The notes under the pieces are model-generated. The model saw nothing but the letters and a program-made list of their open reading frames with translations, was not told the DNA's origin and did not search any database. The position numbers and the translations under genes are program-made. A DNA stretch of 64,000 nucleotides from Kangiella sediminilitoris (GTDB taxonomy: Bacteria > Pseudomonadota > Gammaproteobacteria > Enterobacterales > Kangiellaceae), in the NCBI RefSeq assembly GCF_001708405.1, contig NZ_CP012418.1, forward strand, positions 2,012,501 to 2,076,500, in the 5' to 3' direction. Positions 7,679-55,456 of this stretch are shown here, piece after piece. Position 1 is the first letter of the stretch. The number at the start of each line of letters is the position of its first letter.

Positions 7679-8809
7679 TTACAACCAATCGGTTAGAACG
7701 AAGCCCACTCCCAAACGATTGACGTGTCGATTATAATCAATCAGGCTTTCGCCATACCCATTGAAGTACTGGATATAACCACGCAACTTCCCATCGTCAT
7801 CTAAAGGAAAAGTCCAGTCAAACTGTACCGCGCCTTTATTATCGCTACGCAGATTATTTCTCAATAGCACACCGAAGTTATGGTCATCCCATTGGTAGGC
7901 GGAATAAAGCTCAAAGTAACCCATGTAATCGTCAATATCAGGGTTATCATCGCCATCAGGGTCTAACGGGTCTTCTTTTTCATCTTCTGGGATACGCCAC
8001 CAGGGTTTAAATGCAATAACCCAGCGGTCATTCTCAAAAGCAAACTCCGTATAAACACGGTTCCAGCTGCGAGAGTATAGTCCACTCTGTCCATTAGACT
8101 GGTGGGAGACGCCCATCGAAAAGTAAGGTATCTGCCACTCACCCAGGGCCCAGTCGGTTGCCCATGCAGCGAATATTTCAGGTTCATGGTTAGTCTCGCG
8201 GAAAGGACTGGATACGTCTTTGTTATAAGCCTGCCAATAAGACTGTCCGGTATAAGCAAAGAATAATGCACTATCCTTACCAAAAGGCTCTTCCCAGAAT
8301 GGGGTTTTAAAGCTTACCTGAAATTTAATTTCGGTATTATCCACCTCTCGCTCGTCACCAGTAGCCTGCAAACTGTCTTCATTAGGTCGTCGGTTATAGG
8401 TCAGTGGTAGGAGATAATTAGGTTTATGCGGAATAATTGCGAAGCGGTTATCCCGAATTCGGTATTCCAGACGAAGGCGTTTTTTTAATAATGTCGACTC
8501 TTCACTCTCACCTTCAGCTTGCCCTGAAGCATCTTCTGAGTCAGCTGGATCGGACGCAAATAAGTCTTTGCTGCGACGAAAGAAAGCTCTATCACTCTCT
8601 CTTTCACAATACTCCTTTATCTCTTTAATAGAAGTATCATCACTAACCACATCCATACGCTGAAGCAAGCATTGATCATAATCTTGAGAGTAGGCAGCGG
8701 AAGATGCTTCTTCCTCTTCGCTGGCGAGAGATAGTACAGGAGCCATCAGCAAAGAAGGCAGGAGTATAGTGTAAACGGTAGCTCGATTGGGCTTAACGTC
8801 AAACGTCAT
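7679..8809 (-). CDS. pldA: Outer-membrane phospholipase A (OMPLA)
   Basis: Outer-membrane beta-barrel phospholipase A1/A2 that degrades mislocalised phospholipid in the outer leaflet. A signal peptide covers about residues 1-30. The catalytic signature HQSNGQSG...SRSWNR is intact, with His236, Ser238 and Asn250 spaced exactly as in the E. coli His142/Ser144/Asn156 triad. The region of residues 35-110 before the barrel is Ser/Glu/Asp-rich and longer than in E. coli. The C-terminus (RLGVGFVLTDWL) ends in a beta-signal-like strand. It is monocistronic. Confidence 0.9.
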   Translation of the reverse strand: MTFDVKPNRATVYTILLPSLLMAPVLSLASEEEEASSAAYSQDYDQCLLQRMDVVSDDTSIKEIKEYCERESDRAFFRRSKDLFASDPADSEDASGQAEGESEESTLLKKRLRLEYRIRDNRFAIIPHKPNYLLPLTYNRRPNEDSLQATGDEREVDNTEIKFQVSFKTPFWEEPFGKDSALFFAYTGQSYWQAYNKDVSSPFRETNHEPEIFAAWATDWALGEWQIPYFSMGVSHQSNGQSGLYSRSWNRVYTEFAFENDRWVIAFKPWWRIPEDEKEDPLDPDGDDNPDIDDYMGYFELYSAYQWDDHNFGVLLRNNLRSDNKGAVQFDWTFPLDDDGKLRGYIQYFNGYGESLIDYNRHVNRLGVGFVLTDWL

Positions 8810-45685: not shown

Positions 45686-47002
45686 TTAATCTAACAACTC
45701 TTTTAAACGCTTCTCAATCCTATCTAAGAGTAGATTTCCGCAACTTCCTGGCGAAGTCCTCTGTTCTATAGAGATCTCTGCTTGACGCTCTTCCAGCTCC
45801 TGATAGTTGTCCTTGATATGTCGGTATGCATCACGAAATGCCATGCCATCTTCAATAACTAACTCCACAGCTTTATCCGTTGCAAACATGGATGCCTCGA
45901 TTGCCTGTTCACATTGCTTATGATTAATTGTCATCCCCACCAACAGATGAGGTACCAACTGTAAGCACTGCAAGGATGAAGATACTCCTTTTAATAAAGG
46001 TTCCTTAGTATTTTGCAGATCTCGCTGATAGCCACTGGGTAGAGAAAGCAGTGACTCTAGCTCGGCATAACAACCAACTAGCTTGGCATACTCAGCCCGC
46101 ATCAACTCTACTGCATCGGGGTTATGCTTGTTTGGCATAATCGAGGATCCCGTACTGAAGTCATTCCCAATTTCAATGAAGTTATACTCACCGGTAGAAA
46201 ATAAACTTAAGTCCCAGGCCATTCGACGTAAATCGAGTAGTGCGTTCTTAAAACATCCAAGCACCTGCAGCTCAACCTTGCCACGACTGTTCTGCACATA
46301 CATAGGGTTTATCTGCAGGCGGTTAAAGCCAAGTGTCTTAGTGGTATAGTCCCTGTCCAACTTGAGGTTTACCCCATATCCTGCAGCCGATCCCAGGGGA
46401 TTACTTCCTATAAGCTCCAGTACCTGCTGCGCGGCCTTTGCATTATCACAAAATGCCTCTGCAAACGAAGCGAACCATAGCCCCCAGCTGGACACTACAG
46501 CCCTCTGCAGGTGTGTATAGCCTGGCAGCACATCTTTTTCATGCTGCTTAGCCAGCTTGAGGCAAGTGAATGAAACATCCAGGCACAGTTGATTTAATTG
46601 TTTTAATGACTCACAGCAAAACAATCGAGTCGCTACCGATACCTGATCGTTTCGACTTCTGCCCGTATGAATTTTTTTGCCTAGCTCACCCAGTTTGTCC
46701 GTCAGATACCACTCAATAGCAGAGTGCCCATCCTCGAAGCGTTCATCTAGTATAAATTGACCCTTCTCAAAATCCTTTAATAGCTGATCAAGGCTTTGGT
46801 TGATGATCATACTTTCCTGCTCTGATAAAACGCCGATCCGTGCCAATCCCTCTGCATGAGCCTTACTAGCCTGAATATCAAATGCCAAAAGCTGCTGATC
46901 CAGAATGACGTCTCGTCCCGACATAAAAAGCATGATATCTTCGCTTAGCCTGGATTTACTTTTGGTTGATTCTTTACTCCATAATGGTTGTGACATAATC
47001 AT
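45686..47002 (-). CDS. argH: Argininosuccinate lyase
   Basis: 438-residue enzyme of the fumarase/aspartase superfamily, final step of arginine synthesis. The signature GSSIMPNKHNPDAVELMRA (about residues 286-304) and the HTGRSRNDQV block are intact. ATGs at 47002 and 46996 are both possible starts; AGGTGA lies just upstream. It is the last gene of the arg operon and no terminator hairpin is visible after it. Confidence 0.96.
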   Translation of the reverse strand: MIMSQPLWSKESTKSKSRLSEDIMLFMSGRDVILDQQLLAFDIQASKAHAEGLARIGVLSEQESMIINQSLDQLLKDFEKGQFILDERFEDGHSAIEWYLTDKLGELGKKIHTGRSRNDQVSVATRLFCCESLKQLNQLCLDVSFTCLKLAKQHEKDVLPGYTHLQRAVVSSWGLWFASFAEAFCDNAKAAQQVLELIGSNPLGSAAGYGVNLKLDRDYTTKTLGFNRLQINPMYVQNSRGKVELQVLGCFKNALLDLRRMAWDLSLFSTGEYNFIEIGNDFSTGSSIMPNKHNPDAVELMRAEYAKLVGCYAELESLLSLPSGYQRDLQNTKEPLLKGVSSSLQCLQLVPHLLVGMTINHKQCEQAIEASMFATDKAVELVIEDGMAFRDAYRHIKDNYQELEERQAEISIEQRTSPGSCGNLLLDRIEKRLKELLD

Positions 47003-47006
47003 TCAC

Positions 47007-47939
47007 CTACTCTAAAACAATGCCTGCCAGCTGTGGTAACTGGAAAGCTAAATTAATATTTTGTATAGCCTGTGTGGCAGCACCTTTGAGTAAATTATCC
47101 AGCGCACAATTTACCGCCAGATGTTTCCCATCTTGAGATAACTCCCATCCTCCGACAATGGCACCATGACGGTATGTGGCCTGTGCAACCTGAGGGGGAG
47201 ATTTTTGTAATGAAACCAGTGGGGCTTCACTGTAGAACTGCTGATAAAGGCTTTCCACATCACTAAGCTTCAAGCTCTCCTGTAAAGTAATGTGGCTAGT
47301 TAAACTAATCCCTCGGAAAAAGTTCGCAACATGGGGGGAAAACTTCAGACTAAATCCAAGGTGACGGGATACTTCCTGTTCATGTATATGTTCGGCTAAT
47401 TTATAAGGCATAATATTGTCACGTAATAAGTCTGGATTATTCTTATCTGATGGCGTTGTACCTGCGCCACTATAACCAGAAACTCCAAAACAGCTAACAT
47501 GCCCCCCAACCAGCTTTTTCACTGGAGCAACACTCAGCTGCATCGCTGTTGCATAACACCCTGGGTTACTTATCCTTTTAGATGTCTCCGTCGGATATAC
47601 CTCTGGCAGACCATAGTGCCACTGGTCATCGAATCGGAAGTCAGCACTCAGATCGATAACAACCGTTTCCGCTATTTCTCTCTCAATAACTTCAACGAAT
47701 CGACTGGCCAGGCCGTTGGGTAACGCCAGAATAACCAGCTCTGGTTTTAACTTAACCAGGTCTTGAGGAGAAAGTTCCTCATAAACCAAGGTCGCTTTGC
47801 TGTAACCAGCTATATCTTTGCCAGCCAGTTCTCTGGAGCTGGCGGCCAGCAGGTCTATACTAGGATGGCGGGACAGAATAGAAATGATTTCATTCCCAAC
47901 ATACCCTCTTGCTCCAACTAATACCGCTTTAATGGACAT
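47007..47939 (-). CDS. argC: N-acetyl-gamma-glutamyl-phosphate reductase
   Basis: 310-residue NADPH-dependent reductase. The dinucleotide loop VGARGYVGNEI is at the N-terminus; the catalytic Cys is in SNPGCYATAMQL (about residue 130). The later SPHVANFFRGI block is also typical. Its start overlaps the end of the argBA gene by 11 bases, where a GGAGG serves as ribosome-binding site. Confidence 0.95.
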   Translation of the reverse strand: MSIKAVLVGARGYVGNEIISILSRHPSIDLLAASSRELAGKDIAGYSKATLVYEELSPQDLVKLKPELVILALPNGLASRFVEVIEREIAETVVIDLSADFRFDDQWHYGLPEVYPTETSKRISNPGCYATAMQLSVAPVKKLVGGHVSCFGVSGYSGAGTTPSDKNNPDLLRDNIMPYKLAEHIHEQEVSRHLGFSLKFSPHVANFFRGISLTSHITLQESLKLSDVESLYQQFYSEAPLVSLQKSPPQVAQATYRHGAIVGGWELSQDGKHLAVNCALDNLLKGAATQAIQNINLAFQLPQLAGIVLE

Positions 47940-49260
47940 CCTGACCTCCCGCTGGAAGTAAAGTCTCAGGCTTTATAGAAGCCTCTTCGACACATTGCTG
48001 AATATCCTGATAGGAATTAATACCATTCCAGTAAACTCTCCACTGTCCTGACTTAATAAATCCATCGGCGACAGCAGCATAAAATTTGTTAATAGGGTTA
48101 TTAACATTGGCACGCCAGAATAATTGCCTGTGTTTTCGAGTGACCTTATCCCAAAGAGCTCTACCGATGCCTTCCCCCTTAGCTTTATGGCTAACCACAA
48201 ACTTATCGAGATAGGGTTTATCACTGCTGCCTGAGAGGACAATTGCCGCTCGATAACATTCGGTCACATATACTTTATACAATGGCAGTGAATTAAAATA
48301 ATCCGCGCACAATTCTTTCCCAAATGAAGACTCAATTAACTGTGCAAATCTTTTAGTATCTATTTCATCCCAGCTATCAGCAACCAATGCTCTTTCACCC
48401 ATATTGACCAAGGTGCCTGAACCTCTATCGGTGAATAATTCTTTGGCCAATAACTCTGGCTTGGTAATTGACACCGAGGTTGCTGAGGGAAGTGCCTGCA
48501 ATATACTTTTGATCATTTCCAACTTCAGCTTCATTCCAGAATGAACCCAGCTTTGCTGAATCAAATAATCGTAGTGATTTACGATACTGATGTTGGGAAT
48601 GATTTTATTGTGCTGATCCAGTACGCCTCCGGTTTCAGTCAAAAAGATAATTTTGTATGGCTCGATGGCTTTAGCCAGACTGAAGGTCGCTGCATCGGCA
48701 TTCACATTAACAATCTGGCCCTGCTCAGTTTCTCCTAAGGGACTAACGACAGGAATGCGGCCTTTAGCAACAGCTTTAAGTAACTGCTCAACTTCAACTG
48801 AAACAATATCTCCCACCAGACCAAGCTGCTCTTCACCCAATAATTCACAGTTAAAGATGCCAGAATAAAACGATGTTGCATCCACTCCGGCTTCTTTTAA
48901 TGTCGAGGTCAAATGATGGTTCTCTTCAATAAACACCTCTCTGGCAGCCTTCAGAACCTTCGGCGTAGTAACACGCTGACCATCCACAAACTTGGTAGTA
49001 ATATTTTGCTGTTCAAGTTTTTTATTCAGCTGGGGCCCCGCACCATGAACGACAATAGGAGTCAGGCCGACCTGCTTTAAGAAAGATAAAGAAGCCACCA
49101 GATGAGCCATTTCATCTTTAAGGATTTTCCCGCCAACTTTAATAACCGCAAACTTCAACCCTTCATCCGATGAAAACCGCTTCAAGTACTTCCGTATCTG
49201 AGTTTCACTGTCAATGACACTCAATAATTTATAGACGGTGTCTTTTACCTGATTACTCAT
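47929..49260 (-). CDS. argBA: Bifunctional N-acetylglutamate kinase / N-acetylglutamate synthase
   Basis: 443 residues, a fusion. The N-terminal two thirds is an amino-acid kinase domain (AVIKVGGKIL about 34-43, VVHGAGPQLNKKL, VNADAA). The last about 150 residues is a GNAT acetyltransferase with KAKGEGIGRALWDKVTRKH as the acetyl-CoA loop. This is the NAGK-NAGS architecture described in Xanthomonas and in vertebrate-like NAGS. It provides both the first and second steps of the arginine pathway in one protein. Overlaps argE by 8 bases. Confidence 0.93.
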   Translation of the reverse strand: MSNQVKDTVYKLLSVIDSETQIRKYLKRFSSDEGLKFAVIKVGGKILKDEMAHLVASLSFLKQVGLTPIVVHGAGPQLNKKLEQQNITTKFVDGQRVTTPKVLKAAREVFIEENHHLTSTLKEAGVDATSFYSGIFNCELLGEEQLGLVGDIVSVEVEQLLKAVAKGRIPVVSPLGETEQGQIVNVNADAATFSLAKAIEPYKIIFLTETGGVLDQHNKIIPNISIVNHYDYLIQQSWVHSGMKLKLEMIKSILQALPSATSVSITKPELLAKELFTDRGSGTLVNMGERALVADSWDEIDTKRFAQLIESSFGKELCADYFNSLPLYKVYVTECYRAAIVLSGSSDKPYLDKFVVSHKAKGEGIGRALWDKVTRKHRQLFWRANVNNPINKFYAAVADGFIKSGQWRVYWNGINSYQDIQQCVEEASIKPETLLPAGGQDVH

Positions 49261-50332
49261 GACCTAAAATTCTCCAGTATTGCCTCACAACCTGATCAAG
49301 CTGGTTAACACTGACCCATTCATTAGCCGTATGAGCCTGTTCAATGGAGCCGGGGCCAAACACAATTGAGGGGAAGCCTGCAGCTGAAAACAAAGCTGCT
49401 TCAGTCCAGAAATTGACGGGGGCGCCAATCTCGAAACCCAAAGTTTCTGCCAGTATTGAATTCTCTTCAGCACCTCCTTCCTTTGGCAAGGATGGCGCAT
49501 TAAAGCCCAGTGAAACCTGTTCATCTTTAATACCAGTGTAATAAAGAAGCTCGGACATCAGGCTTTTAGTATCCACTTCTGGTAATGGACGCAGTCCAAA
49601 CCGAATGTTGGTTTTTGGTGATATAACATTGGGTTTAACGCCACCTTCTATGTGACCAACATTGAAACAAGTTCCTGACAACCCATCATAAGTATCTGCA
49701 AGCTTGTCCTCTGCCCAACATATGGCCCTTGATATCCAGTGAGCCGCCTGGTGATTGCTGTTATCTTTCAATGCTCTAGGCTCGGAGCTGTGCCCGCTTT
49801 CGGCAGAAAGAGTCAAGTTTGCTGTAATAATGCCGCGGTGTGCCAACACGGCTTTTGCCTCAGTTGGCTCGGCAACAATAACGCCCAGGTAATCGTGCTT
49901 TTCTTCAAGAAAAGAACGAATACACAGACTACTACCATGCTCTTCATCGGAGGAAAATAAGACCGCATAATCATCAGCTCCCGCCTCTATACAAGCAAGC
50001 ATACAGGCGGCAGCCCCCTTAATATCGCAAGCTCCCAACCCATAAAGCTTGTCGTTTTGTTCTAGTATAGAGAACGGTTCCGATTGCCAACCCTCAGTAA
50101 CTGGAACAGTATCGATATGGTAATTGAATAGGTATCTGGGGTTTCCTTTGGTTGCTAAAATATTAACCGACCCCTCACCATGATCCGTCACAGTAACAGT
50201 CGCTCCAGGAAGGTTTTCCGATAAATATTCAACAATTCCAGACTGTTGGATCTTGCGTGGAGGATTGGTGGTATCAAACGCGACCAGATGTTGAAGATGC
50301 TTTTTTACCTGACTCAAAGTAGGCGCTGTCAT
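49253..50332 (-). CDS. argE: Acetylornithine/acetylcitrulline deacetylase (ArgE/DapE family)
   Basis: 359-residue M20 metallohydrolase. Metal-site blocks FNYHIDTVP, LYGLGACDIKGA and SSDEEHGS, VAEPTE and later FGPGSIEQAHTANEWV are intact. Because the pathway uses N-acetylornithine carbamoyltransferase, the natural substrate should be N-acetylcitrulline rather than N-acetylornithine (inference from pathway). It overlaps argG by 4 bases. Confidence 0.93.
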   Translation of the reverse strand: MTAPTLSQVKKHLQHLVAFDTTNPPRKIQQSGIVEYLSENLPGATVTVTDHGEGSVNILATKGNPRYLFNYHIDTVPVTEGWQSEPFSILEQNDKLYGLGACDIKGAAACMLACIEAGADDYAVLFSSDEEHGSSLCIRSFLEEKHDYLGVIVAEPTEAKAVLAHRGIITANLTLSAESGHSSEPRALKDNSNHQAAHWISRAICWAEDKLADTYDGLSGTCFNVGHIEGGVKPNVISPKTNIRFGLRPLPEVDTKSLMSELLYYTGIKDEQVSLGFNAPSLPKEGGAEENSILAETLGFEIGAPVNFWTEAALFSAAGFPSIVFGPGSIEQAHTANEWVSVNQLDQVVRQYWRILGHE

Positions 50333-51549
50333 ACCGCACTATCCTGCGACGCATTAACCGTCGCCCACGTGGCTGTACTTTGGCCAAATAACTTAATAAA
50401 ACCACTGGCCTCTTCGATACCCCAGTCCGCTTTTTGCGCATACTCGACATTCTTACTCATCAATAAATAAGGACTCGACACAGCGACTGCTTCGATATGA
50501 TTCGGTGCTAATTTTAGCTCAACAGTACCAGTAACCTTCTTCTGACTAGACTCTAGTAGAGCTTCAAGGTTTTTAGTTAGAGGGTCAAAGTAAAACCCCT
50601 GATAAACCAGATCGACCCATTTTTTAGCTACTAAGGGCTTGAAGTGGTTTTGCTGTTGAGTAAGAACAACCTCTTCTAGAGCGCGGTGTGCTTTTAATAA
50701 ACCCATCAGCGCGGGAGCTTCAAAGACTATGCGCCCTTTCAGACCGATTATGGTATCGCCGGTATAGATACCACGCCCAACTCCATATTCACCCAGTATT
50801 GAATTCATTTCCTGCAGGGCGGAAACGCCATCAATGTCTTTCCCATTAAGCTGGCTTAGTACTCCCTGCTCAAAAGTTAGAGAAATTAGCTGGGGTTTCA
50901 GTGTGTTGCTTTCGGGGTTCTGAGTTAAAACATAAGTGTTATCCTCAGGTGCCTGCCATTTATCAATTGCTCCCCCTGAAATGGTCACACCCAGCAGGTT
51001 TTCATTCACACTGTATTCTTTATGAACCACTGACACTTCATGGCCATGCTTACTCAGATAATCAATTTCATATTCTCTGACATTAACCACCTCTTTTTGA
51101 ATATCCCTGATAGGTGAGAGAATCGTAAGATCACTGAGTGCCTTTATCGAAAGATCAAACCTCACCTGATCGTTGCCCATACCTGTACAGCCGTGAGCGA
51201 CATATGATGTACCCAGCTGATGGCATAGTTTGACAGCCTCTTCTGCAATCAGGTACCTGTCAGCGCATAGTACCGGATACTGATCCTGGTATAACGCACT
51301 CCCCCAGATTAAAGGCTTGACTATCGTATTCCACAACTGCTCCTGTCCATTAATGTTCCAGTGTTTTTTGGCACCAAGTTGTATCGCGGTCGACTCAATA
51401 TCTTTCACCGCCTGCTCAGAAACACCACCGGTATTAACAAAAAGTGTATGCACCTCATATCCTTTATCAATTAAATAAGGAACACAAAAGCTGGTGTCCA
51501 GGCCACCTGAAAATGCTAAAACGACTTTTTCTTTACTCACAATATTCAC
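50329..51549 (-). CDS. argG: Argininosuccinate synthase
   Basis: 406-residue enzyme joining citrulline and aspartate with ATP. N-terminal PP-loop AFSGGLDTSFC (about residues 12-22), the YVAHGCTGMGNDQVRF block and GRKG-like IGLKGRIVFEAPA are present. One base separates it from argF'. It is the long-type argG of this pathway. Confidence 0.95.
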   Translation of the reverse strand: MNIVSKEKVVLAFSGGLDTSFCVPYLIDKGYEVHTLFVNTGGVSEQAVKDIESTAIQLGAKKHWNINGQEQLWNTIVKPLIWGSALYQDQYPVLCADRYLIAEEAVKLCHQLGTSYVAHGCTGMGNDQVRFDLSIKALSDLTILSPIRDIQKEVVNVREYEIDYLSKHGHEVSVVHKEYSVNENLLGVTISGGAIDKWQAPEDNTYVLTQNPESNTLKPQLISLTFEQGVLSQLNGKDIDGVSALQEMNSILGEYGVGRGIYTGDTIIGLKGRIVFEAPALMGLLKAHRALEEVVLTQQQNHFKPLVAKKWVDLVYQGFYFDPLTKNLEALLESSQKKVTGTVELKLAPNHIEAVAVSSPYLLMSKNVEYAQKADWGIEEASGFIKLFGQSTATWATVNASQDSAV

Positions 51550-51550
51550 C

Positions 51551-52552
51551 CTAAGAATGATTCATTAATGTATTCATGATTGATTTCTGAACGTGAAGCC
51601 TGTTTCCTGCTTCTTGAATAGCGACACAATTTTTTGAGTCCACAACAGCATCTGTTGCTTTGATATTTCGTCTTAATGGAAGGCAGTGGCTAAATAAGGC
51701 GTTATTGGTTTTTGCCATTTTCTGTTCGTCTACAATGAAGTGCTTATACTGATCCCGAATCACCTTTTCTTGTTGCCATTGTCCGAAGTAAGGTAGCGCA
51801 CCCCAGCTTTTGGCATAAACGATATCAGCATTGTCATAAGCTGAGTCAATATCATGAGAAACGGTTAGCTGATTACTATGCTCTGAGCTATAGGTGTGGC
51901 CAAGATTCATATAGTGTTCATCAAGGACATACTCTTCCGTCGGACAAAGCAGGGTGACGTCCATACCAAACTTGGTTGCAATCATCAGAGCAGAATTAGC
52001 AACTGCAGTATTCAGCGGTTTAGGATGATAGGTCCAAGTCAATACATATTTCTTTCCTTTCAGATCGCCCAGCTGCTCTTGTAAGGTCATGATATGAGCT
52101 AACTCCTGGCATGGGTGGGTAATGGTTTCCATGTTGATCACGGGAACAATGGAGTGTTCAGCCAGAGCATTGATGAGCTTGTCCTGACGATCTTCCTGCC
52201 AGTTTTTAAATTTGGGAAATGCTCTCACCGCAATAAGGTCACAGTACTCTGATAGGACTTGAGCAACTTCCTTAATATGCTCTTCTGCATCACCGTCCAT
52301 CACGGACCCTAGCTCAAACTCGATAGGCCAGGCATCTTTCCCGGGTTGCAAAACTACAGCTTGACCACCCAGCTGATGAACACCAAGTTCAAAACTGGTT
52401 CTTGTTCTAAGTGACGGATTAAAAAATAGCAGTGCAACAGACTTTTCTTTCAGTAATGGCTGAAATTTGTTTTGTTTTAACTCTACCGCAAAGTCAATCA
52501 GCTCCTGTAGCGAGGAGTGTGACCAATGCTCTGTCGTTAAAAAGTGCTTCAT
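51551..52552 (-). CDS. argF': N-acetylornithine carbamoyltransferase (AOTCase)
   Basis: 333-residue transcarbamylase. The carbamoyl-phosphate motif SLRTRTSFELG and the ETITHPCQELAH block fit the Xanthomonas-type AOTCase rather than OTCase, which carries HPxQ in a different setting. GDAEEHIKE supplies the Glu that distinguishes it from the succinyl enzyme (Pro/Lys there). LPLRRNIKATDAV carries the modified Lys position. It acts on N-acetylornithine, giving N-acetylcitrulline. First structural gene after the leader-attenuator. Confidence 0.93.
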   Translation of the reverse strand: MKHFLTTEHWSHSSLQELIDFAVELKQNKFQPLLKEKSVALLFFNPSLRTRTSFELGVHQLGGQAVVLQPGKDAWPIEFELGSVMDGDAEEHIKEVAQVLSEYCDLIAVRAFPKFKNWQEDRQDKLINALAEHSIVPVINMETITHPCQELAHIMTLQEQLGDLKGKKYVLTWTYHPKPLNTAVANSALMIATKFGMDVTLLCPTEEYVLDEHYMNLGHTYSSEHSNQLTVSHDIDSAYDNADIVYAKSWGALPYFGQWQQEKVIRDQYKHFIVDEQKMAKTNNALFSHCLPLRRNIKATDAVVDSKNCVAIQEAGNRLHVQKSIMNTLMNHS

Positions 52553-52602
52553 GGCAAATACCTTTCGGTCATGCCATCGGGAGGGAGTTTTTAGACGCTC
52601 AT

Positions 52603-52629
52603 AAAAAAACCCAGCCGATGGCTGGGTTT
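52603..52629 (-). terminator. Attenuator terminator of the arginine operon
   Basis: Perfect 10-bp stem AAACCCAGCC/GGCTGGGTTT with a 3-base loop, followed on the minus strand by T7 (A run at 52603-52609 on plus). It lies 50 bases before the argF' ATG and downstream of the leader peptide stop, so it ends transcription before the operon unless an alternative fold forms. Confidence 0.9.
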
Positions 52630-52688
52630 CAAATTCTTTAGTGATTTTCGTCAGGCACTAACAATTCCCAGCCGGCATAATACGGCTG
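52603..52688 (-). promoter_or_regulatory. Four-segment transcription attenuator
   Basis: On the minus-strand RNA: segment 1 CAGCCG (52688-52683) lies in the Arg codon run of the leader peptide; segment 2 CGGCTGGG (52674-52667) can pair either with 1 or with segment 3 CCCAGCC (52626-52620); segment 3 also pairs with segment 4 GGCTGGG (52616-52610) to form the terminator. A ribosome stalled on the Arg codons would mask segment 1, free segment 2 to pair with 3, and let transcription continue. Full translation would favour 3:4 and stop. Confidence 0.75.
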
Positions 52689-52747
52689 CGACGTCGTTGT
52701 TGTACTGAGCTGCAATCGGCAACTATGGTTAGTGTCTCTAAAATCAT
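52658..52747 (-). CDS. Arginine-rich leader peptide of the arg operon
   Basis: 29-codon ORF starting ATG at 52747 and ending TAG at 52660-52658. Codons 18-22 read CGA CGT CGC AGC CGT, giving Arg-Arg-Arg-Ser-Arg. The following residues IMPAGNC run through segment 2 of the attenuator. The Shine-Dalgarno is weak (GAAGAAACGA). The Arg run just before mutually exclusive hairpins and a terminator is the reason to call it a leader peptide. Product function is cis-regulatory. Confidence 0.75.
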   Translation of the reverse strand: MILETLTIVADCSSVQQRRRSRIMPAGNC

Positions 52748-52790
52748 TTCGTTTCTTCGTTTATTGGTTAAACTATCGTCAACGCAAAGA

Positions 52791-52819
52791 AATTTACACC
52801 GATTTGATTTGCTTGTAAA
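52791..52819 (-). promoter_or_regulatory. Probable arg operon promoter
   Basis: On the minus strand TTTACA (52819-52814) and TAAATT (52796-52791) are 17 bases apart. The transcript would start near 52784, about 37 bases before the leader ATG. No ArgR palindrome was recognised, in keeping with control by attenuation. Confidence 0.5.
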
Positions 52820-53094
52820 CACTAAATATCACTTTATCCACACCAGCACTGACTCTGCTCTATCAAAAACAACTCAGGTATTGAGCAAAGATATTGATTA
52901 CTAGAGAGTTTTTATCAAAAAGCACTGATAGAAATTTTTTTTGTGGTAACAGCCGAACTGATGACTTAGGTTGAAGTTCCCCGGAAGTCTTTGCCAGTAA
53001 TGTTTTCTTACATCTAACAGCTTTGCCCACCCTTCAATTACTTGGTAATCTTTGTAAACTTGTGAAATCCGTCCATTTTTATTGGGGAGAAACC

Positions 53095-54597
53095 ATGAAA
53101 CAGCTTGCCTACTCTATTTTTCTGGCCGTCAGCCTAACTCTGAGCAACCTGGCTCTAGCCGATGAAAAACAAGAGTCATCACCCAACCCTTATCCCGAAG
53201 AAAAAACAGTAGTCACTGATCACTCAGTAGAAATCGGTGGCAAAACCATAAAATATAAAGCCACAACGGGAAACTCCTTTGTCTATAACGATAACAATGA
53301 AGTTATAGGCTCTATCTTCTTCACTGCTTATACCAAGAAAGGGACCAATCCTGAAAATAGGCCTATAACTTTTGCCTATAATGGTGGGCCAGGCTCAGCA
53401 TCAGTCTGGTTGCACATGGGAGCTTTAGGCCCGAAGCGAGTCGTCATGGATAAAGAGGGATTTCCTCTAAAGCCACCTTTTGATCTTATCGATAACGAAT
53501 ACTCTCTTCTCGACCTAACAGATATTGTGTTCATTGATCCGGTAGGCACAGGCTACAGTCGTGCGCACGACAAAGGTACTGACAAGGATTTCCATGGCGT
53601 GTGGGAAGACATTCGTACAGTCTCTGAGTTTATTCGCCTTTACATGACACGTAATGAGCGCTGGAGTTCGCCTAAATTCCTGGCTGGCGAAAGCTATGGT
53701 ACGACTCGCTCTGCGGGTATTGCTTACCATATGGGACAAAATCATGGTGTTTACTTTAATGGCATCATGCTGATTTCGAGCGTCCTCGATTTCAGGCTTG
53801 ATGATTTTAATGATAAGAACGGCGTACTTGCTCCTATTACCATGCTACCTAGTTACACGGCGGCTGCCTGGTACCATAAAAAGCTCAATGCTCCTTTAAG
53901 TAATGATCTCCAAGGCTCGATCCAGCAGGCTAAGGAGTTCGCCATGAATGATTATGCGCTGGCATTATTACAAGGGGATGATCTAGAGCCAAGACGCAAG
54001 CTTGCAATCGCGGAGCGAGTTGCAGACTTCACCGGCTTGTCAGTTGATCTGGTTTTGGAGAAGGATCTAAGAATCACTCTAAATGACTTCCTGCATAATA
54101 TTAAACGTGATGAAGGCGAAACTGTAGGACGTTTAGACAGCCGTTTCACGACACCAGAGCTAGATGCAATGAATAAGCGCGGCTATCGTGATCCGAGCTA
54201 TATGGCGATTCACGGTACCTACACTGAAACCTTAATGACGTACCTGTCTAAGGAACTCAATTATAAGTCTGACTTGCCATATCATATTCTAGGTGGCGGC
54301 GTTAAAAGCTGGAACTATGAGGACTTCAACCGCCAGAGTAACGACATCAGCGACAAGCTGACCGATGCCATGTTGCGCAACCCTGATATGCAAGTTTATG
54401 TCGGTAATGGCTACTATGATTTCGCGACACCTTTCTTCGCCACAGAATATACGTTCTCACATATGGGTCTGCCTGCTGAACTTAAAGACAATGTTCATAT
54501 GTCTTACTACGAGTCAGGACACATGATGTATATTCGTGAGCATGACTTAATTAAATTGAAGAAAGATTTAGCCGAGTTCTTTAAGAAATCGCTGTAG
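53095..54597 (+). CDS. Exported S10-family serine carboxypeptidase
   Basis: About 500 residues. ATG 53095 has GGGGAG 6 bases upstream and opens a signal peptide ending in ALA; I prefer it to the upstream in-frame codon at 53023. Catalytic Ser200 is in GESYGTT; NGGPGSASVW is the oxyanion region; Asp in YVGNGYYDFATP and His in ESGHMMYI complete the triad. Periplasmic peptidase that likely trims C-terminal residues from peptides. Monocistronic. Confidence 0.92.
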   Translation: MKQLAYSIFLAVSLTLSNLALADEKQESSPNPYPEEKTVVTDHSVEIGGKTIKYKATTGNSFVYNDNNEVIGSIFFTAYTKKGTNPENRPITFAYNGGPGSASVWLHMGALGPKRVVMDKEGFPLKPPFDLIDNEYSLLDLTDIVFIDPVGTGYSRAHDKGTDKDFHGVWEDIRTVSEFIRLYMTRNERWSSPKFLAGESYGTTRSAGIAYHMGQNHGVYFNGIMLISSVLDFRLDDFNDKNGVLAPITMLPSYTAAAWYHKKLNAPLSNDLQGSIQQAKEFAMNDYALALLQGDDLEPRRKLAIAERVADFTGLSVDLVLEKDLRITLNDFLHNIKRDEGETVGRLDSRFTTPELDAMNKRGYRDPSYMAIHGTYTETLMTYLSKELNYKSDLPYHILGGGVKSWNYEDFNRQSNDISDKLTDAMLRNPDMQVYVGNGYYDFATPFFATEYTFSHMGLPAELKDNVHMSYYESGHMMYIREHDLIKLKKDLAEFFKKSL

Positions 54598-54599
54598 AC

Positions 54600-54812
54600 T
54601 TGCTGCGCTTTTTCTCCCCCTTGGAGTCAGCCGAAGCCGTTATAAAATGATAGAGCAAATTAGGCAGGGAAGCCTAATTTAGTCAAAACGAAACAGGACG
54701 TTTCGTTTGACGGCTCGTAATGATTTTTAATGGCAAGGGTAATCCGAAGGATCTGACGACGGGGGTAGCCTTCTTTTGGTTACTTTTCTTGGCTACGCAA
54801 GAAAAGTAACGT
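54600..54812. repeat. Structured intergenic repeat with three perfect inverted repeats
   Basis: Between the peptidase and efpL lies a 289-bp stretch with no gene. It contains AAATTAGGC/GCCTAATTT (54657-54680), AAACGAAAC/GTTTCGTTT (54686-54708) and GTTACTTTTCTTG/CAAGAAAAGTAAC (54779-54810), all perfect. The GGTAGCC-TTCTTTTGGTTACTTTT part recalls a widespread gammaproteobacterial dispersed repeat. It does not look like a simple terminator. No terminal inverted repeats or target duplication are obvious. Confidence 0.5.
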
Positions 54813-54886
54813 TCAAACTACTATGACTTTCCAATATTTCCCCATAACTATACAATAGCTCAATCTAAACAATTGAGACCATTCCA

Positions 54887-55456
54887 ATGGCAAAAGCTAG
54901 TGACATTAAAAGAAACATGGCCGTTGAACATAACGGTAAATTATTAGTGGTTAAGAATATTGAAGTCAGCAGTCCAAGTGCTCGTGGCGCAGCGACTTTA
55001 TACAAGATGCGTTTCACTGATGTTCAAGCAGGCACAAAAGTTGAACAGACATTCAAAGGCGATGACCAGCTTACTTTGGTCGATCTAACCAAACGCGCAG
55101 CGACCTACTCTTATGACGAAGGCGACAACATCATCTTCATGGACAGCGAAGACTACAGTCAGTACACCTTTAACCGCGAAGATATCGAAGACGAATTACT
55201 GTTTATCACCGATGAAATTCAAGATCTAAAAGTCGTTATCGCTGACGACAAAGTCGTAGGGTTGGAGCTTCCGCAATCGGTCGAAATGGTTATAGAACAA
55301 ACTGATCCGTCGATAAAAGGCGCTTCAGCAACCGCACGAACCAAACCCGCCGAATTTGCTACTGGCTTAACCATTCAGGTTCCTGAATATATTTCGACTG
55401 GCGAAAAAGTTAAGATTAACGTCGAAGAAAAGAAATTTATGAGCCGCGCTGACTAG
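54887..55456 (+). CDS. efpL: Elongation factor P-like protein EfpL (YeiP)
   Basis: 189-residue EF-P paralog. The SPSARGAATLYKMRFTD block places Arg at residue 33, the loop-tip Arg of EfpL, where EF-P has Lys34 for modification. The KOW-like N-domain and two OB domains are of normal length. EfpL helps ribosomes through Pro and other difficult motifs. Two small genes of unknown function follow on the same strand. Confidence 0.95.
   Translation: MAKASDIKRNMAVEHNGKLLVVKNIEVSSPSARGAATLYKMRFTDVQAGTKVEQTFKGDDQLTLVDLTKRAATYSYDEGDNIIFMDSEDYSQYTFNREDIEDELLFITDEIQDLKVVIADDKVVGLELPQSVEMVIEQTDPSIKGASATARTKPAEFATGLTIQVPEYISTGEKVKINVEEKKFMSRAD

Follow-up and report, generated by a model that had tools for sequence, protein, structure and literature searches.

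The arginine biosynthesis operon in the window, the 64,000 nucleotides of Kangiella sediminilitoris DNA analysed here, is very probably controlled by a ribosome-mediated transcription attenuator with charged tRNA-Arg as its signal; the genes under its control would be argF′-argG-argE-argB(A)-argC-argH. The sequence anatomy of this element, its conservation, its association with argF′, and the lack of ArgR (PF01316) are observed; leader translation, ribosome stalling, premature termination, and the response to arginine are inferred, as no expression data were available. Leader-peptide attenuators of the trp, his, leu, thr, ilv, and phe type are known in proteobacteria, and the classical representatives respond to Trp, His, Leu, Ile/Val, Thr, and Phe. 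Our best reading is that the present element represents a new amino acid specificity, arginine, of this known mechanism, positioned before a whole operon and distributed over many genera, with its transcript ends, arginine response, and leader translation not yet shown. Arginine would then join the amino acids that have leader-peptide attenuators, and in genomes that lack the ArgR repressor the operon seems to bring its control with it. Annotators gain a leader-peptide and RNA signature before argF′ in many genera, and cultured carriers such as Kangiella spongicola (L031) make the attenuator directly testable.

The switch is encoded on the minus strand and begins with a leader ORF of 29 codons (MILETLTIVADCSSVQQRRRSRIMPAGNC and a stop; 52658–52747) that starts 195 nt before argF′ and has counterparts in relatives, where the N-terminal part is variable and the Arg run is conserved. 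Codons 18, 19, 20, and 22 encode Arg and codon 21 Ser, and this run, CGA CGT CGC AGC CGT (52682–52696), constitutes the putative sensor. Segment 1, CAGCCG (52683–52688), pairs with CGGCTG at 52674–52669. Segment 2, GGCTGGG (52667–52673), is the antiterminator arm, which is invariant across 12 genus sequences, is the exact 7-bp complement (52673–52667) of CCCAGCC within segment 3 (52626–52620), and retains its complementarity to segment 3 across the wider set of loci. Segment 3 (AAACCCAGCC, 52620–52629), assigned from sequence, folding, and covariation, forms the 5′ arm of an intrinsic terminator, and segment 4 (GGCTGGGTTT), together with the remaining T run, completes it (52603–52616), an assignment supported by 3:4 covariation. 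The terminator, AAACCCAGCC-ATC-GGCTGGGTTT, has a 10-bp stem, an ATC loop, and seven T residues ending at 52603, and sits 50 nt before the argF′ ATG (52552). The segments thus offer two mutually exclusive alternatives, 1:2 plus 3:4 or 2:3. A sequence-only reading of this DNA had described the 29-codon leader with CGA CGT CGC AGC CGT at codons 18–22, which is correct to the base; the alternative pairings that it proposed and its 10-bp 3:4 stem with T7, 50 nt before argF′, are borne out as well.

Folded alone, the terminator reaches −17.0 kcal/mol (z −5.7), and the whole leader folds at −49.1 kcal/mol (z −4.6), a value equalled by none of 200 shuffles. Two further features of the region are less secure. 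A possible linker hairpin, TTAGTG...CACTAA (52638–52661, minus strand), lies within the 2:3 loop; it was spotted by eye and is weak, the minimum-energy fold of the linker alone being a different hairpin and linker folds over 57 loci averaging z −1.0. A candidate sigma-70 promoter, TTTACA-17-TAAATT (52791–52819, minus strand), matches the consensus at 9 of 12 positions; the scan returned two promoter-like sites against a shuffle mean of 3.0, which on its own is weak support.

The genes downstream, all on the minus strand, were identified by protein family matches. The first gene of the operon is argF′, N-acetylornithine carbamoyltransferase (51551–52552; NCBIfam NF003384, 574 bits, cut-off 288), followed by argG, argininosuccinate synthase (50329–51549; NF003385, 615 bits, cut-off 603), and argE, acetylornithine deacetylase (49253–50332; NF006439, 471 bits, cut-off 345). 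Next is an acetylglutamate kinase that carries an additional part at its C terminus (47929–49260; NF003387, 606 bits, cut-off 426), which we take to be of the argB-argA type. An argC-like reductase (47007–47939; Pfam PF22698 and PF01118), whose name is inferred from its operon context, and argH, argininosuccinate lyase (45686–47002; TIGR00838, 303 bits, cut-off 279.5), complete the operon.

The element recurs in front of argF′ far beyond this genome. The argF′ samples comprised 18 of 295 order-sample genomes (matches above 500 bits), 13 of 20 genus genomes, and a set of named loci that are the best 80 of 108; two loci with too short an upstream sequence (L010 and L090) were left out, and 97 upstream regions were scanned. 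Under fixed rules that required a terminator within 330 nt, an upstream stretch complementary to the terminator 5′ arm, and an Arg-rich ORF (at least three Arg within six codons, the ORF lying before or at the complementary stretch), terminator, antiterminator, and Arg-run ORF were found together in 62 of the 97 regions. Three of these positives are doubtful owing to an odd segment 2 or ORF choice (L041, L043, and L088), and three are near-duplicates (L031–L033, whose leaders repeat those of L002, L006, and L007); all six were omitted from the 56-row alignment, geometry, and folding counts, and L088 was retained in the 57-locus linker set. Positive named loci come from Kangiella, Lysobacter, Luteimonas, Rhodanobacter, Oleiagrimonas, Rudaea, Pseudoxanthomonas, Alkalisalibacterium, Pseudofulvimonas, and one Wenzhouxiangella, among others. 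By the same scan, the element is absent from Phycisphaerales and Myxococcales-type MAGs, from two SAR86 loci, from several Wenzhouxiangellaceae, and from all but one of the alphaproteobacterial argF′ loci. Arg is also the residue that stands out: the next commonest at the same run threshold is Ala, in 6 of 97 regions. Relatives retain both the run of Arg codons and the spacing between it and the switch; a lack of such conservation, which would have refuted the sequence-only reading, was not seen.

A covariance model built from the 56 leaders (R1) sharpens this association. In the window's genome it scores the arg leader at 78.4 bits and the next site at 34.5 bits, with no other convincing site, and the region upstream of carA in that genome has no such element. 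In a class sample of 369 genomes, the five with NF003384 matches of at least 575 bits are also the five best R1 matches (at least 53 bits), all located at argF′, and eight others with NF003384 at 321–427 bits, above the family cut-off, yielded no such leader. R1 matches 249 of the 369 genomes at E 0.01, only five of which reach 53 bits; the matches below 53 bits are taken to be generic terminators, the loci of the better ones having been examined only by script. Within the genus, the model finds the leader in 13 of 20 genomes, exactly the 13 that have argF′ and argH over the cut-off. There, leader length and N-terminal residues vary, and CGA CGY CGC AGC, segment 2, and the terminator are kept. 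The remaining seven (G007, G032, G073, G091, G195, G296, and G297) lack argF′, argH over the cut-off, and the leader alike, and are perhaps arginine auxotrophs, with the caveat that G297 is only 86% complete.

The proposed mechanism follows the logic of classical attenuation. When arginyl-tRNA is scarce, the ribosome would stall on CGA CGT CGC and cover segment 1, leaving segment 2 free to pair with segment 3 as it emerges from RNA polymerase; with 2:3 in place, the 3:4 terminator would come too late, and the operon would be read. When arginyl-tRNA is plentiful, the ribosome would continue to the stop codon, which lies 7 nt beyond segment 2, and cover segment 2, or alternatively would leave and allow 1:2 to form. 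With segment 2 masked or held in 1:2, 3:4 would form, and transcription would halt before argF′. The earlier proposal that arginine starvation stalls the ribosome and opens the operon is supported, as the best explanation, by conservation and covariation, its effect on expression remaining an inference.

The spacing of the leaders accords with these steps, given a ribosome footprint that we assumed to extend 12 nt ahead and 16 nt behind. In the window, the four Arg codons begin 23, 20, 17, and 11 nt upstream of segment 2. Every one of the 56 loci has two or more Arg codons at a distance of at least 12 nt before segment 2, so that a ribosome stalled on them would leave segment 2 free. A ribosome that has reached the stop codon would, under the assumed footprint, mask segment 2 in 44 of the 56, in four of which the stop precedes segment 2 and cover would be partial. 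The other 12 fail, six narrowly (stop 12–13 nt past segment 2) and six, all Kangiella, clearly (19–22 nt).

Predicted folding reproduces both outcomes and constrains how they can be reached. For all 56 loci, 2:3 is the predicted pairing with a stalled ribosome and segment 4 still unmade, and 3:4 is the predicted pairing once the ribosome sits at the stop. Once all segments are present alongside a stalled ribosome, the equilibrium favours 2:3 in only 13 of 56 loci (probability of 2:3 in the window, 0.02), and the switch must therefore be kinetic and co-transcriptional. If no ribosome is present and segment 4 has yet to be made, the window leader is predicted to form 1:2 (0.85); across the loci, 1:2 exceeds 0.5 in only 16 of 56, and 2:3 is favoured in 35 of 56. 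Folded alone, 1:2 is predicted in 12 of 12 genus sequences, with a sixth pair that is G-C, A-U, or U-A, and in competition between 1:2 and 2:3 among these 12 Kangiella sequences, 1:2 is favoured in seven and 2:3 is ahead in five. Members outside Kangiella often have a weak 1:2 protector, and their leader stop usually falls on or near segment 2. Most such members would thus need the ribosome itself to mask segment 2, and read-through would be expected if their leader were left untranslated. This refines the sequence-only reading, as does the range of the element, which extends far wider than Kangiella.

Comparison of the aligned leaders yields clear covariation for 3:4 and only weak covariation for 2:3. 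On the MAFFT alignment of 56 sequences (A1), 99.1% of 3:4 cells are paired and 32 are double-change cells, neither value being matched in 500 shuffles; the number of pair types is no higher than in shuffles. For 2:3 on the same alignment, 88.8% of cells are paired and 15 are double-change cells, a count reached by none of 500 shuffles; the percentage paired was reached by 18 of 500 and the covariation score by 28 of 500, and two of five measures failed to beat shuffles. A1 set segment 2 of three loci (L092, L094, and L103) one column off. A second, scripted alignment corrected these but put L055 in the wrong place, and L105 seems wrongly placed in either alignment; because of such misaligned rows, the 2:3 counts are conservative. 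After realignment, 2:3 has 16 double-change cells (reached by 4 of 1,000 shuffles), and its pairing percentage is reached by 73 of 1,000. In the most variable column, the segment 2-3-4 triples are TAT in 25 loci, CGC in 14, TGC (a wobble) in seven, CAT (2:3 broken) in five, AGC in three, and TGT and AAT in one each.

Changed cells are not independent events, and events were accordingly counted on an ArgF′ tree, where the state of segment 3 requires at least 11 changes. For 3:4, on well-supported branches, segment 4 followed in five of six independent pairs and opposed in none (p = 0.0625); for 2:3, segment 2 changed in the same sense in a mean of 2.2 and in the opposite sense in 0.7, which is not significant. 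The compensatory changes by which the sequence-only reading would have its model judged are thus clear for 3:4, and for 2:3 are weaker and not significant as independent events. Three Marinicella loci (L096, L104, and L109) keep the switch logic through another pairing, in which an 11-nt stretch, GCTCTTTGGYT, pairs with the terminator loop and both inner arm ends and not with the 5′ arm.

The choice of Arg codons is itself distinctive. Within 50 nt before segment 2, the 56 leaders use CGC 89 times, CGA 76, CGT 66, CGG 8, and AGA 1; the argF′ genes of the same loci use CGC 389 times, CGT 142, CGG 138, AGA 94, CGA 64, and AGG 57. CGC, CGA, and CGT together account for 231 of 240 leader codons versus 595 of 884 in argF′ (Fisher p = 2e-24), and CGA alone for 76 of 240 versus 64 of 884 (Fisher p = 2e-20), both without correction for relatedness. 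These three codons are presumably read by a single inosine-bearing tRNA-Arg.

A leader could also act through its peptide, which would bind arginine or a related molecule in the ribosomal tunnel and arrest the ribosome by virtue of its amino acid sequence, not for lack of charged tRNA. Such nascent-peptide arrest draws support from 25 Lysobacteraceae/Rhodanobacteraceae-type leaders that are conserved around a LTSARMAAGMTSRARR stretch beyond the Arg codons, with a pN/pS of 0.41 for the part before RARR. This value is mild, however, and the invariance of GxTSRARR arises partly by construction, as it served as the search key. Moreover, leaders of Kangiella and of other loci of the order are variable before the Arg run and keep only the run, and stalling at high arginine would activate the biosynthetic operon when arginine is abundant, opposite to the sign that this geometry requires. 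Nascent-peptide arrest is therefore improbable as the general mechanism; the data leave room for a contribution of the peptide itself in the Lysobacteraceae/Rhodanobacteraceae-type leaders, not in Kangiella.

The tRNA-sensing attenuator must also be weighed against an arrangement in which a constitutive terminator or processing site happens to follow an accidental ORF and the operon answers to an unknown DNA-binding regulator. Terminator-like hairpins are indeed common, with sites in the same genome scoring up to 34.5 bits with R1. The upstream neighbour, however, a Peptidase_S10 gene (53023–54597, plus strand), is divergent from the argF′ operon and so does not end at the hairpin, and we rejected the terminator as its constitutive 3′ end. 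Nor does the ORF behave as an accident: Arg run, spacing, and antiterminator co-occur in the 62 positive loci and in no control, neither in 1,148 regions upstream of other ORFs (mechanically called, at least 200 aa long, loci L031–L110) nor in 485 dinucleotide shuffles. Terminators themselves are rare among these controls (24 of 1,148 and 6 of 485), and where terminator and antiterminator are both present, an Arg run accompanies them in 62 of 64 argF′ regions versus none of 12 control regions and none of 5 shuffles. We consider this arrangement highly improbable, with the reservation that PF01316 was the only regulator family tested and AraC-type arginine regulators were not.

Arginine genes of gammaproteobacteria have been described as the core of the ArgR regulon, and ArgR has been reported absent outside the Gammaproteobacteria (PMC5343134). 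In the genome of the window, there is no match to PF01316, and no ArgR-box-like site (at most three mismatches to the consensus) occurs between 46684 and 54254, in keeping with the earlier remark that no ArgR box was seen. Control of the operon by ArgR was rejected on these two grounds. PF01316 is likewise missing from all 18 argF′ genomes of the order sample, 15 of which are listed without a match and three of which are not among the 240 matches listed; those matches cover 240 of 295 genomes, including four of the same family that have no strong argF′ match. It is also absent from 49 of 50 argF′ genomes tested among the 80 behind the named loci, whose completeness is not stated, which include many MAGs, and at least two of which, Kangiella species, are probably in the order sample too. 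The sole carrier, an Alteromonadaceae MAG (L048), has the Arg leader as well and may be either a true exception or a chimeric assembly. Nine of the 50 have neither leader nor ArgR. The absence of ArgR thus tracks argF′ or lineage and not the leader as such, and ArgR may have been replaced by something other than the leader. ArgR is also missing from five genus members that have no argF′.

The leader belongs to no RNA or peptide family that was searched. Against Rfam, positions 50000–55000 of the window gave only two weak matches in the leader (23.1 and 18.7 bits versus cut-offs of 55 and 49.5), and 11 loci, ten of them leader-bearing, gave no leader match, so that a T-box or other known RNA family was rejected for want of a match at the gathering score. 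The 29-aa leader has no Pfam match at E up to 1, including PF10940 (DUF2618), and no NCBIfam match; membership in the ORF34/SpeFL leaders was rejected because the PF10940 domain was not matched. The element resembles the trp, his, leu, thr, ilv, and phe attenuators in its leader ORF with a run of end-product codons, its alternative 1:2 plus 3:4 or 2:3 pairings, and its intrinsic terminator before the first structural gene. Unlike them, it senses arginine (as inferred), precedes an argF′ operon, and occurs in genomes nearly all of which lack PF01316; its members outside Kangiella often have a weak 1:2 and a stop on or near segment 2, and its three Marinicella antiterminators pair through the terminator loop.

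Published leaders of other genes offer partial parallels. The leader ORF orf34 of Salmonella speF has consecutive Arg codons that serve as the published arginine sensor, and shares the logic whereby ribosome pausing at low arginine alters RNA folding (PMC6386406). It differs in controlling ornithine decarboxylase through Rho-dependent termination, masking of the ribosome-binding site, and RNase G decay, and in having a DUF2618 domain (PMC6386406), to which the window leader has no match. Translational or Rho-linked control through slow translation of Arg codons, for which speF sets the precedent (PMC6386406), is scarcely credible here, given the intrinsic terminator and complementary segment 2 between leader and gene and the lack of any Pfam or NCBIfam match that would signal the orf34 domain. 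The Pseudomonas carA leader similarly encodes a peptide before an arginine-feeding gene, with attenuation proposed, but it precedes carAB, its arginine control is transcriptional, and attenuation is tied to pyrimidines (PMC4997734). The uORFC-8-2 cysS motif is likewise a uORF predicted to act by ribosome-mediated attenuation, there for Cys, in Rhodobacterales and upstream of a tRNA synthetase gene; the accessible part of that report describes no arg-operon leader (PMC8632094). No description of an arginine-operon attenuator of this kind was found in the open-licence full-text literature, a search that leaves out most subscription papers and all preprints.

On the ArgF′ tree, 28 of 94 argF′ loci lack the element. 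Presence there, and only there, includes seven loci scored by eye (L040, L045, L064, L096, L102, L104, and L109), of which, under later pairing rules, L040 and L045 lack a good segment 2 and L102 lacks a terminator; it also includes the doubtful L041, L043, and L088, and SAR86 L052 was scored absent. A broader conjecture, which we hold only as a tentative and rather unlikely one, is that these arginine attenuators constitute a family, old on the ArgF′ tree, that serves as the local control, by arginine, of arg operons of the N-acetylornithine pathway in several ArgR-less gammaproteobacterial lineages, using almost only the codons that we take to be read by one inosine tRNA-Arg, with CGA enriched about fourfold, and that, to judge from the conserved MTSRARR-type leader, its Lysobacteraceae branch has in part turned into a nascent-peptide sensor.

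Several minor observations accompany these results. In L052, an ORF ending in TRRRRRSI and a stop was seen by eye shortly before argF′ at 8001, with no adjoining terminator by scan; it is possibly a translational version of an arginine sensor, or a relic. In L054, L060, L065, L081, L087, and many others (Lysobacteraceae-type and otherwise), a −10-like hexamer ends 6–10 nt before the leader ATG, from which the leader mRNA would be nearly leaderless, on weak consensus scores and without a control. Within the window, 54651–54730 (plus strand) gives a near-threshold match to the TwoAYGGAY RNA (RF01731; 40.9 bits versus a gathering score of 43), about 150 nt before the elongation factor P gene (54887–55456).
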